From NCBI GenBank assembly GCA_035316325.1, contig DATHJB010000172.1, positions 1 through 64,000 of the forward strand: 64,000 nt of DNA, written 5' to 3'. Under the pieces are notes generated by a model. The model did not search any database and was not told where the DNA came from. It saw only the letters and a program-made list of their open reading frames with translations. The number at the start of each line of letters is the position of its first letter. Position 1 is the first letter of the stretch. Position numbers and translations under genes: made by a program. The DNA is from Acidimicrobiales bacterium (lineage in GTDB: Bacteria; Actinomycetota; Acidimicrobiia; Acidimicrobiales; VFJN01). Below are positions 17,888 to 25,392 of the stretch, one piece after another.

Positions 17888-19098
17888 CAGCGGTCCACCG
17901 GTCCGAAGGTGGGGATCACGCCGCGCACGTCGCAATCGACGCTCGAAGGGACCGTGCCCGCCTCGTGCTCGCGCACCGCCTCCAGGAGCAGGTGGCGGAG
18001 GCGGGTGATGAGGTGGTCGGAGGGGCCGAGGTGCTGGCGGCTGCGATCCCAGCCGGGTCGGATGCTCTCCATGAGCGCCATGTCCTCGTAGAACAGGCCG
18101 ACCCCTCCCCGGCCCACGCCGATCCCGGTCCAGTGCCGGTCCATCAGGTCGCGGCGTTGGCCCCAGTTCCCGTCGGGGTCGTGCGGGAGGTCGGTGCGGA
18201 AGGTCTCCTCCGAGCGGACGTGGCTCGCGAAGACCCGTCCGGGCTGCCCGTCCTTCAGCGGGTGCTCCGTGTTGTAGAAGATCCCCCACAGCATCGTGGT
18301 GCGGTCGTCGACGGGAACGTTGAGCAGGATGGCCTGGTCCTCCGCCGGGTCGGCCGCCAGGCCGATGAGGTCCCACCACGGGAGGACGAGCTCGCCGACC
18401 CGGACCTCCTCCTCACCGTCCGGGCCCTGCTCCAGGAACCGCCACCGGCCGCCGTAGGGCCGTCGCTCGAACTCGAACCGGCTCCGCGTGGTCGACAGCA
18501 TCGTGCCGGCCATCGTCACGCCCTCGTACGACTCGCGCAGCGCCGACTGGTGCAGGACGCGCACGTGGGCCTGGTCGAAACCCGCTTCGAGCACCGGCAG
18601 CCAGTTGGCGTGCACCACGCCCATGGACGCGAACACGTGGTCATCCGGGAGGTCGACGAAGGGGAGGTCCGGACGGGGTGGGGGCGACGACCGGGGTCCG
18701 AGGTACAGCCACACCAGGCCGCCCGCCTCGTCGACGGGATGGTGGTTCGCGGGGATGCGATCGACGAACCCGTCGATCGCGGACTCGTTGGGCGCCTCCA
18801 CCACTCGGCCGCGCACGTCGAGCTTCCACCCGTGGAAGAGGCACCGGAGCCCGCACTCCTCGTTGCGGCCGAGGGCCAGGGACACACCTCGGTGCGGGCA
18901 TGCCTCGTCGAGGATGCCGACGGTGCCGGTCGAGTCGCGGAAGGCGACGAGGTCCTCGCCCAGGACCCGCACCCGCCGGGGCGGGCCGTCGGCCTCGAGG
19001 TGCGCCGAGCGCAGCACCGGGATCCAGTACTCGCGCATGAGGCGGCCCATCGGTGTCGACGGACCGAACCGGGTGAGTGCGGTGTAGGCGTCGGGCAC
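17887..19098 (-). CDS. Rieske non-heme iron oxygenase, large (alpha) subunit
   Basis: 403 aa from GTG 19098 with GAGAGGG upstream. N-terminal Rieske domain binds a 2Fe-2S cluster through C67-x-H69 (ACPHRG) and C86-x2-H89 (CLFHGW). The catalytic domain has the mononuclear iron motif around FDQAHVRVLH (Asp175, His178, His183). Size and spacing fit the phthalate 4,5-dioxygenase / vanillate demethylase-like group with no separate beta subunit. It needs an electron-supply reductase, and none is encoded nearby. Upstream in the same operon are a UGSC-family thiol protein and its partner, an unusual setting for this class. Confidence 0.9.
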   Translation of the reverse strand: MPDAYTALTRFGPSTPMGRLMREYWIPVLRSAHLEADGPPRRVRVLGEDLVAFRDSTGTVGILDEACPHRGVSLALGRNEECGLRCLFHGWKLDVRGRVVEAPNESAIDGFVDRIPANHHPVDEAGGLVWLYLGPRSSPPPRPDLPFVDLPDDHVFASMGVVHANWLPVLEAGFDQAHVRVLHQSALRESYEGVTMAGTMLSTTRSRFEFERRPYGGRWRFLEQGPDGEEEVRVGELVLPWWDLIGLAADPAEDQAILLNVPVDDRTTMLWGIFYNTEHPLKDGQPGRVFASHVRSEETFRTDLPHDPDGNWGQRRDLMDRHWTGIGVGRGGVGLFYEDMALMESIRPGWDRSRQHLGPSDHLITRLRHLLLEAVREHEAGTVPSSVDCDVRGVIPTFGPVDR

Positions 19099-21908: not shown

Positions 21909-23126
21909 GTGGACAGCTCCACCCAGCTCTTCATCGACGAGACGGCGGCCGGGTACTTCGACGACCCCTACGCGCACTACGCCCCGATCCGGGCCGCCAA
22001 CCCGGTCCACCACGACCCGCGCGGGCCGTGGATGGTCTTCGGGTACGACGACGTGAAGCGGGTACTGCGAGGCCCGGGCATCAGCAGCCGCCTGGCCAAC
22101 GCGCCGGACACGCCGCGCACGCAGCGACTCGTCGAGGCGTGGGGAACCGGGATCATCACCAAACCGCACCTCTCCCGCGCCGACCCGCCGGAGCACACCC
22201 GCCTGCGGCGCGTGCTCGCCGCCGCGTTCACGCCTCGGCACATGGAGGCCCTTCGCCCGCGCATCCGGGAGATCGTCGACGAGCTGCTCGTCGGCGCCGG
22301 GGACGAGATCGAGGTCGGCGCACAGCTGGCCCGGCCGCTGCCCTACCGCGTGATGTGCGAGCTCCTCGGGTACCCGCCCGACACCGACGACTCGCTCATG
22401 ATCGAGTGCACCCACGCGTTCGTCGTGGCGACGATGGAGCCGTTCATGGACGGCGCCCAGGTCGACGCCGTGGTGCGGGCGAACAAGCTGCTGACCGAGC
22501 AGATCCGCGACGCCGTCGAGTGGAAGCGGGACCACCTCGGCGACGACCTCATGTCGCTCCTGTTGAACGCCGGCGACGAGCGCGAGGTGCTGAGCGAGGA
22601 CGAGGTCGTGGAGCAGGTCCGCCTCCTGTTCGCCGCCGGCCACGAGACGACGGTGAACGCGGTCGAGCTCGCACTGCTCTCGCTGCTGCGCAACCGCGAC
22701 CAGTGGGACCTCCTGGTCGGCAACCCCGACCTGATCGACAACGCCGTCGAGGAGCTGCTGCGCTACGACAACACCATCCAGATCGCGTGGCGGACGACCC
22801 CCGACGACTTCGAGCTCGGCACCGCCACCATCCCGGCCGGGAACGACGTCATCGGCTGGATCGGCTCGGCGAACCGCGACCCGGCCAAGTGGGGCCCGGC
22901 CGCCGATCGGCTCGACGTGACGAGGCAGGACGCCGGTGACCACCTCTCCTTCGGCAGCGGGCTGCACCTCTGCCTCGGTGCCTGGCTGGCGCGTGCCGAG
23001 CTCCAGGAGCTCCTGAGGACCCTTGCCGCTCGCTACCCGGCCATGGACCTCGCCGGCGAGGTCCCGTGGGAGCGGCTCGTCTCGGTCCGGGGTCCCGAGC
23101 GACTCGACCTGCGCCTCCGGGGATGA
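21909..23126 (+). CDS. Cytochrome P450
   Basis: 405 aa from GTG 21909. All class I bacterial P450 hallmarks are present: I-helix oxygen-activation motif AGHETT at 243-248, K-helix ExxR at 282-285 (EELLRY), and heme loop [10 protein letters not shown] with the thiolate Cys355. No membrane anchor, so soluble and dependent on a ferredoxin/reductase not encoded nearby. It resembles actinobacterial CYP families that hydroxylate terpenoid, steroid or fatty-acid substrates, but the substrate cannot be told. The stop overlaps the start of the FMN-dependent enzyme downstream (ATGA), so the two are translationally coupled. Confidence 0.93.
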
Positions 23127-24349
23127 CGTCGGAGGCCGCCGCCCCGCTCCCTCGTCGAGCCCGCCGCCTCCTCGGGCCCGACGACGCCCGGCGTGCCGCG
23201 CGTCGTCGCCTCCCCGGGAGCGTCTTCCGCTACTTCGAGGGCGGTTCGGAGGAGCGGCTGACGATCGAGGCGAACCGGGAGGCCTTCAGGTCATTGGCGT
23301 TCAGGCCCCACGTCGGCGTCGCCCCGACCGGCGTCGATGCCTCCGTGGACGTGCTCGGCACGCGACTGGCGATGCCCGTGGTGCTCGCACCGGCCGGCTA
23401 CATCCGGCTCGCGCACCGCGACGGCGAGTTGGGTGCGGCGCGAGCGGCACAGCGAGCGGGGATCGCGACTGCGGTCAGCAGTCTGTCCAGCCAGCCGATC
23501 GAGGCGATCGCCGACGCCGCCGGTGGCGACCTCGCGTGGTACCAGGTGTACTTCGCCGGCGGGCGCGCCGTCGTGGAACGAGCCATCGAGCGGGCTCGTG
23601 TCGCCGGCTGCGGTGGGCTCGTCGTCACGATCGACATGGCGGCGCTCGGCTCCCCCGAGCGACCGCTCCGTGGCGGGAAGGTCCCGACGAAGATCGACCT
23701 CGCGACCGCGCTGCGCCACGGACCGGGGATGCTCATGAAGCCGGCCTGGCTCGCAGGCTTCGTTCGAGACGGCTTGTCCCTCGACGTGCCCAACCTCGTC
23801 GACGGATCGGGCCGAGTGCTCTCGGTGGGCGAGGCGGCCGCGAGCATCGCTCAGGAGCCCCCTCCGACATGGGAGGACCTCGAGTGGATACGCGCGGCGT
23901 GGCCCGGCCCGCTGATCGTCAAGGGGATCCTGCGCGCGGACGACGCGCGGCGAGCCGTCGATGTCGGAGCCGACGGGGTCGTCGTCTCGAACCACGGGGG
24001 CAACGTCCTCGACGGATCGGTGGCCACCCTCCGCGCTCTCCCCGAGGTCGTCGACGCCGTCGGTGACCGCGTGGAGGTCCTGCTCGACGGCGGCGTCCGA
24101 CGCGGGGTCGACGTCGTCAAGGCGGTGGCCCTCGGAGCGAGGGCGGTCCTGATCGGCCGGCCCTACATCTGGGCACTCGCCGCCGCGGGCGAGGCCGGGG
24201 TGGACCAGACCCTTCGCCTCTTCCAACAGGGCGTGGAGCGCACGCTGGCGCTCCTCGGTTGCCGGTCCGTCGAGGACCTCGAACCCTCGCTCGTCACCGG
24301 CGCGTGGCGGGATGGCCAGGCGCCCGGCTACGGCACGTCCACCGGGTAG
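23123..24349 (+). CDS. FMN-dependent alpha-hydroxy-acid oxidase family protein, MftD-like
   Basis: 408 aa from ATG 23123. TIM barrel of the lactate/glycolate oxidase family: [116 protein letters not shown]. The active-site His291 is kept, but the canonical SNHGGRQLDG is [10 protein letters not shown], so the substrate-carboxylate Arg is missing. That change and the C-terminal half resemble MftD, the flavoenzyme of mycofactocin maturation, although no other mycofactocin genes are in the window. It may oxidise a 2-hydroxy acid or an amine-like substrate. Tail-to-tail overlap of 22 bases with the amidohydrolase gene. Confidence 0.85.
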
Positions 24350-25392
24350 GAGACCTCGAGAGCCAGCTCGATCCCTGCCCGCTCGAGCCGGTTGGCGGCG
24401 ATGCCGACGAAGACCTCCTTGGGCACGAGGCAGTCGTCGCACGCACCCTCTCCGGCCCGGACGTCCAGCCGGGCACGGCCGTCGGCGATCGCGACGACGT
24501 CGAGTCGGTAGCCGTCGGCCGCCAGCGACCGTGCGAGCGGATCGAGGGCGTCGTGCACGCCCGGGGGCAGTTCGGCCCCTCCCCGGTCGAGGCCGAACAG
24601 GTCCGCGGTCGTCGCCCCCAGGAACCGGGCCTGGTCCTCGACCGCCAGCCGGCGGACGCCCTGCCGGGCCGTCTCGACCGCTGCCCCCAGGCCGCCGAAG
24701 GTCTGCGGATGGTCGGACCCCCAGAGCAGCCGGCCAGGCCCGAAGAGCCCGACGAGCTGGTCCACCACGGCCGCAGGGTCGCCGTCTGCGTGTTGGAACG
24801 TGTGCGTCGTCACCTTCAGGTGGATGCGGTCGAGCTCGGCGAGGCCGAGGACCGGCTCGCCCGGCGCGATCCGCCCGTCCTCGAAGGCCGGGAACCCGCA
24901 GTGGTCGAGCACCACCGGGCACTCCGCCGCGGCGAACGCCGGTCGGAGCGGCGCGATGGCGTCGGCCGTCACGGTCACCACTGCCGTGAGGCCCAGGCGC
25001 GCCGCCGTCTCGAGCACGGTGGACGCCCCGCCGCGCCCGATCCACCGGCGGGCGGTGGTCATCCCGAACAGGCGGACGCCGGTCACGGCCGGAAGCACTG
25101 CCAGCTCCTCGAGGTGCGCGAGGTGGTCGGCCGCATCGAGGTCGACCGCGACGACCGCGGCCAACCGGCCGGGGTGCGCCGACGATGCCGCCACCACGTA
25201 GCGGTTGTCGAACGAGTAGGGCCCCACGGCCTGGACGAGCACAGCCTGGTCGACGCCGGCCTGGTCCATCGCGCCGACGAACGACTCGGCATCGTGGTCG
25301 GGCTCCTTCCACCAGTCCGTCCCGATCCCGGTCGGTGCCACCGGGTAGCGATCGTCCGTGGTGGCGACGTGCACGTGCGAATCGACGATCAT
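24328..25392 (-). CDS. Amidohydrolase fused to a C-terminal NifU-like domain
   Basis: 354 aa, ATG 25392. Residues 1-270 form an amidohydrolase-2/PDC-lactonase-like TIM barrel: HxH at 6-8 (DSHVHV), VRLFG, His164 (LDHCGF), LLWGSDHPQ with Asp227. Residues 277-352 read as a NifU C-terminal (Nfu) domain: LDPLARSLAADGYRLDVV, then GACDDC (Cys318, Cys321) followed by the helix VFVGIAANRLE. Nfu domains hold a labile Fe-S cluster between two CxxC motifs of a dimer and pass it on. A hydrolase carrying one is unusual. The cluster could be structural, regulatory or delivered to an oxygenase in the island. Diverges from the aldo/keto reductase gene. Confidence 0.85.
   Translation of the reverse strand: MIVDSHVHVATTDDRYPVAPTGIGTDWWKEPDHDAESFVGAMDQAGVDQAVLVQAVGPYSFDNRYVVAASSAHPGRLAAVVAVDLDAADHLAHLEELAVLPAVTGVRLFGMTTARRWIGRGGASTVLETAARLGLTAVVTVTADAIAPLRPAFAAAECPVVLDHCGFPAFEDGRIAPGEPVLGLAELDRIHLKVTTHTFQHADGDPAAVVDQLVGLFGPGRLLWGSDHPQTFGGLGAAVETARQGVRRLAVEDQARFLGATTADLFGLDRGGAELPPGVHDALDPLARSLAADGYRLDVVAIADGRARLDVRAGEGACDDCLVPKEVFVGIAANRLERAGIELALEVSYPVDVP

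Follow-up and report, generated by a model that had tools for sequence, protein, structure and literature searches.

The locus described here raises the question of why a lactonase-type hydrolase should carry at its C-terminus a domain resembling the iron-sulfur protein Nfu, and which partners such a domain may have. The gene lies in a window which comprises the whole stretch of DNA that was analysed, 64,000 nucleotides of a contig (DATHJB010000172.1) from an Acidimicrobiales bacterium, and the features that bear on the question are collected in Table 1. A first-pass annotation of this DNA had described the product as an amidohydrolase joined to a NifU-like Fe-S domain with the cysteine pair Cys318/Cys321, and both halves were recovered, the amidohydrolase-superfamily domain by Pfam (PF04909) and the Nfu-like CxxC domain, referred to below as NL, by profile comparison (hhalign).

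The reading frame is free of stops over all 354 codons, the codon-position GC is of the coding type in the hydrolase as well as in NL, and no frameshift or second gene is visible at their junction. The linker consists of a few residues and does not contain a start methionine of NL; the sole candidate for an internal start is a GTG at residue 279, upstream of which a by-eye inspection revealed no obvious Shine-Dalgarno sequence at the usual spacing. The gene encodes an amidohydrolase joined in one frame to an Nfu-like domain, and the earlier observation is confirmed.

Table 1. Coordinates of the fusion gene, of its domains and motifs, and of the relevant neighbouring genes in the window
Feature	Coordinates	Strand	Basis or remark
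Fusion protein, 354 aa, lactonase-like amidohydrolase and Nfu-like domain	24328..25392	(-)	single open reading frame
Amidohydro_2 LigI-like TIM-barrel domain, residues 1-268	24589..25392	(-)	Pfam PF04909 and PDB sequence matches
HxH active-site motif, residues 6-8	25369..25377	(-)	role inferred from the family
DHCG motif, residues 163-166	24895..24906	(-)	aligns with DHxG of PDC hydrolases
GSDH motif, residues 225-228	24709..24720	(-)	aligns with GSDWP of PDC hydrolase 2ffi
Nfu-like domain (NL), residues 277-352	24337..24564	(-)	profile comparison, AlphaFold2, Foldseek
CDDC, Cys318 and Cys321	24430..24441	(-)	neither Cys varies among 61 homologues
UGSC family protein, Cys form (DCGSC), 184 aa	20158..20712	(-)	PF24696, E 8e-41
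UPART, conserved UGSC partner, about 346 aa	19118..20161	(-)	4-nt overlap of its ATG with the UGSC stop
P450	21909-23126		
FMN-dependent alpha-hydroxyacid dehydrogenase	23066-24349	(+)	nearest MftD, 376 bits against a cut-off of 471; convergent with the fusion gene, with which it shares about 20 bp at the ends
Rieske and LigXa_C-type oxygenase component	17890-19098	(-)	starts about 20 bp after UPART, same strand

The hydrolase half can be placed with the help of its full-length domain and its catalytic residues. PF04909 matches residues 3-268 over the entire profile (1-289 of 289; E 6e-19, 69.3 bits against a cut-off of 26.4), the closest sequence relatives in the PDB are the 2-pyrone-4,6-dicarboxylate (PDC) hydrolases 2ffi and 4d8l, and the active-site motifs HxH, DHxG and GSDxP of the LigI/4-sulfomuconolactone hydrolase group are all present. 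Judged by these nearest relatives, the half is a member of the LigI/lactonase side of the amidohydrolase superfamily. It shares with that group the complete domain, the three motifs and the best PDB relatives, but scores far below the equivalog cut-offs (37.1 bits for NF042924, whose cut-off of 500 is not reached) and differs from it also by the C-terminal Nfu-like extension.

The tail, taken alone, gives a weak match to Pfam NifU that stays below the threshold (PF01106; E 0.07, 13.7 bits against a cut-off of 27), and the top E-value for this model among 61 NL homologues, which were drawn from the same genome, the same order and at least 80 loci of the GTDB collection, is 4e-4. In the alignment of these 61 domains A50, C51, C54, L55 and P57 (tail numbering) are invariant and form the pattern A-C-x-x-C-L-x-P. 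The NL profile aligns by hhalign with the true Nfu domains of related genomes (probability 90.6, E 1.3e-6, 60 columns), and an intermediate family of small CxxC proteins, A7, bridges NL and Nfu with links of 3e-14 and 8.8e-13, all of these E-values being single-pair values. One member of A7 (G018:C112) scores 43.7 bits to PF01106 and thus over the Pfam NifU cut-off. For comparison, the probability was 0.1-0.2 in control pairs of unrelated profiles and 33 in a match confined to a bare CxxC (12 columns).

The AlphaFold2 model of the tail, built from 61 sequences, has a pLDDT of 88 and an alpha-beta-beta-alpha-beta order of predicted elements. A structure search had been expected to find Nfu, and Foldseek did return Nfu structures from the PDB, 2jnv in second and 2z51 in fourth place, 1veh lower though still among the first 15, and 2m5o also lower, with TM of 0.5-0.57 and E above 0.001, amid KH-type folds of the same topology. 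With the C-terminal domain of NifU and the Nfu proteins (E. coli NfuA, human NFU1, plant NFU/CnfU) NL shares this predicted order, a DG-containing end of the first helix, a CxxC pair before helix 2 (Cys318/321) and the significant profile similarity. It differs from them in having CxxCLxP, a longer loop before the first Cys, a Pfam score under the cut-off and a linkage to UGSC and UPART genes that is described below; the Nfu signature GxCxxCPxS is not matched, the tail reading GACDDCLVPK against GACVSCPAS in Nfu. We conclude that NL is homologous to Nfu, yet constitutes a separate divergent subfamily.

Elsewhere NL is in most cases a separate small protein, about 75-95 aa long (typically about 85 aa) and present in actinomycetes, proteobacteria and Chloroflexi among the GTDB loci, and its recurrent neighbour is UPART, the conserved partner of the UGSC proteins. 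UPART lies within 4 kb in 57 of the 80 listed NL loci, and UGSC too in 49 of those 57, these counts being raw, from related genomes and uncorrected for kinship. In 24 loci the start of NL overlaps the stop of UPART by a few nucleotides, often by 4. The two are even encoded as a single open reading frame, with NL at the C-terminus, in a locus of Chloroflexi (L112, 8930-10240) and in one of Sphingomonadaceae (L082, 8461-9861), and in a locus of Nitriliruptorales (L056, 229-3273) NL precedes UPART in the same frame, which is a possible NL-UPART fusion. Another locus (L070) had been flagged as having UPART and NL in one frame; the UPART reading is broken there, and it was not counted as a fusion.

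The Pfam neighbours found across NL loci comprise zinc alcohol dehydrogenases, SDR proteins, FAD oxidoreductases, luciferase-like monooxygenases and solute-binding proteins, a pattern indicative of the catabolism of small organic molecules. In the loci with UGSC, UPART and NL the most frequent Pfam neighbours are zinc-dependent alcohol dehydrogenases, which account for 12 of the 102 adjacent proteins that were scanned.

NL also occurs outside UGSC systems, since UPART is not nearby in 23 of the 80 listed loci and a second NL of the host genome is situated by other genes; and as many UGSC loci have no NL, it is to be considered an accessory. The second host copy is a stand-alone gene (C60:6382-6636, locus L163) with no UGSC found nearby, and its neighbours are a different amidohydrolase, a carboxymuconolactone-decarboxylase-like gene and an acyl-CoA ligase. 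We also considered whether NL goes with the Cys form of UGSC, NL being present in 3 of 5 Cys loci versus 0 of 21 clear Sec loci in a sample of 30 UGSC loci; this was rejected, because NL adjoins UGSC genes with an in-frame TGA in many genomes of the order (e.g. G628, G646, G610, G485, G537, G559, G450 and G623).

The UGSC family itself is described in the literature as (seleno)proteins without known function, likely of a Trx-like fold (PMC2398784, PMC13188914); they are among the most abundant environmental selenoproteins (PMC2398784) and are known with one fusion domain, itself of no known kind (GOS selenoproteome paper 2008, PMC2398784). In our literature search no description of NL or of the hydrolase as a component of this family (PF24696, NF041046) was found. 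The UGSC protein of the window scores 140 bits to the Pfam model, whose cut-off is 25, and 105.8 bits to the NCBIfam equivalog, below its cut-off of 125. Three UGSC genes are present in the host genome, of which the window copy is of the Cys form, and the other two (C71:11097-11519 and C64:1368-1832) contain one in-frame TGA each, which suggests the use of selenocysteine. By hhalign UGSC aligns with PrdB-like selenoproteins (PF07355) with a probability of 91 and a single-pair E of 1.1e-6, the Sec/Cys UxxC positions coinciding. This likeness to selenoprotein B of proline and glycine reductases (PrdB/GrdB) is centred on the UxxC; it covers about 96 columns only, and no sign of the rest of the PrdB/GrdB system was seen here.

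UPART proteins, about 350 aa long, have no Pfam match above the cut-off and adjoin UGSC in all 30 loci sampled from UGSC alone. The AlphaFold2 model of UPART is confident (pLDDT 92), and no convincing fold relative was found for it in the PDB, where the top structural match has a TM of 0.27-0.31; a relation to class I fumarase, with a TM of 0.27 for the best PDB match, was not used. A sequence profile search of the PDB with UPART and UGSC gave nothing useful. The window shares with the UGSC family its Cys-form UGSC and UPART, and NL and the hydrolase recur in UGSC loci.

How often, then, are the two halves of our protein joined? When 397 genomes of the order were searched, the hydrolase was found, among the matches listed, in 52 including the host, and the tail is fused to it only in the host copy (0 of the 51 other hydrolase genomes among these matches). 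Among the matches listed from a plasmid collection a fused homologue was not found either, and a literature search for a fusion of NifU and amidohydrolase retrieved no relevant paper. The combination is as unusual as it had been taken to be, occurring in no other genome covered by the order search and the plasmid collection. In one genome (G704) the hydrolase seemed to run into a tail across a TGA; this stop separates the hydrolase from UPART, and there is no fused tail. The first-pass annotation had named the absence of the tail in all orthologues as a finding that would refute its reading. Such absence is true of the fused form, but not of the tail as such, which is missing from the orthologues because NL exists as a separate gene beside several of them.

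A fusion seen once, in the one assembly examined and in none of the 51 other genomes, may of course be incidental, i.e. result from the loss of a stop between adjacent genes or from an assembly error, the joining being without function. We consider it quite unlikely, because the frame is open through a junction that offers neither a start methionine of NL nor a good ribosome site, coding-type GC is kept on both sides, the catalytic motifs and the CxxC are intact, and the independent UPART-NL fusions show that NL tolerates fusion and recurs in it.

Fifteen of the 20 best hydrolase relatives from the same order are located no more than about 5 kb away from UPART and/or UGSC, and a separate NL gene is also present in 8 of these 15 loci, again as raw counts from related genomes. 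Typical arrangements are NL-UGSC-UPART accompanied by a divergent hydrolase, and hydrolase-UPART-UGSC-NL with all genes on the same strand; several of the UGSC genes in the loci of hydrolase orthologues contain an in-frame TGA where selenocysteine is expected. In Embleya sp. NBC_00888 hydrolase, NL, UPART and UGSC are four separate genes within about 5 kb. Since hydrolase and NL are both neighbours in one conserved cluster, the protein of the window joins two of its members, which corresponds to a Rosetta-stone pattern. In the window UGSC and UPART are about 4 kb away from the fusion gene and do not form one run with it, being separated from it by the P450 and FMN-enzyme genes, which run in the opposite direction.

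From what is read in the sequences, namely the domain identities, the rarity of the fusion, the linkage of NL to UPART and UGSC, that of the hydrolase to UGSC, and the NL-UPART fusions, we propose that the fusion probably represents two neighbours of a conserved cluster that became joined, a LigI/lactonase-type hydrolase and the NL protein of the UGSC-UPART system. It suggests that the hydrolase works with the little-known UGSC system.

A different role had been put forward in the first-pass annotation, according to which the tail delivers Fe-S clusters to, or senses them for, a nearby Rieske enzyme or P450 redox chain, and a Rieske protein and a P450 are encoded in the same region. P450s, however, carry haem, and comparative evidence ties NL to UGSC and UPART, genes that in many genomes adjoin it, overlap it or are fused to it, so that delivery to the P450 or the Rieske protein is unsupported. 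No link of NL to either of them was seen in other genomes, neither of the two families belongs to the frequent Pfam neighbours of NL loci, and the host genome has two ordinary NifU/Nfu matches elsewhere; we regard this role as very improbable. The NL subfamily does not seem to be a general factor of Fe-S assembly.

As to the function of NL within the UGSC-UPART system, it would be logical to suggest a small subunit which docks on UPART/UGSC and presents its CxxC pair there, and this pair may either bind an Fe-S cluster transiently, as that of Nfu does, or work as a thiol redox pair. There is a considerable chance, though less than an even one, that the tail holds no Fe-S cluster at all, the CxxC acting as a dithiol or holding a structural metal, and the domain serving mainly for docking on UPART/UGSC or for dimerisation. 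Consistent with it, CxxC is followed by LVP where Nfu has CPxS, the profile alignment shows about three extra residues before the first Cys of NL, and UGSC, as a Sec/Cys UxxC protein, could exchange electrons with a dithiol. The invariance of both Cys argues in the opposite direction, as does the homology to Nfu, in whose homodimers a [4Fe-4S] cluster is bound at the interface by the same CxxC (PMC5014551).

If the fusion does join two members of the UGSC-UPART cluster, as we propose, it would tether the hydrolase to the UGSC-UPART enzyme encoded 4 kb away, and the hydrolase would cleave a lactone-like intermediate. The least certain step concerns the nature of that enzyme: provided that the similarity to PrdB is real, the profile similarity of UGSC to selenoprotein B would make the system most likely a selenol/thiol-dependent reductive enzyme of a catabolic pathway. 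We may even suggest, as a tentative and in our own estimate rather doubtful extension, that NL is a dedicated Fe-S or redox subunit of an undescribed UGSC-UPART system, related to selenoprotein B reductases, widespread in actinomycetes and present in proteobacteria and Chloroflexi as well, for which the tethered lactonase-type hydrolase performs the next step.

Reviews still list UGSC proteins without a function, and the value of this rare fusion is in the functional link to UGSC. The NL family defines a divergent subfamily of Nfu. Together with the linked clusters, the fusion provides a parts list, consisting of UGSC, UPART, an Nfu-like CxxC protein and a lactonase-type hydrolase, as well as an interaction that can be put to the test and a type of candidate substrate for the UGSC system.
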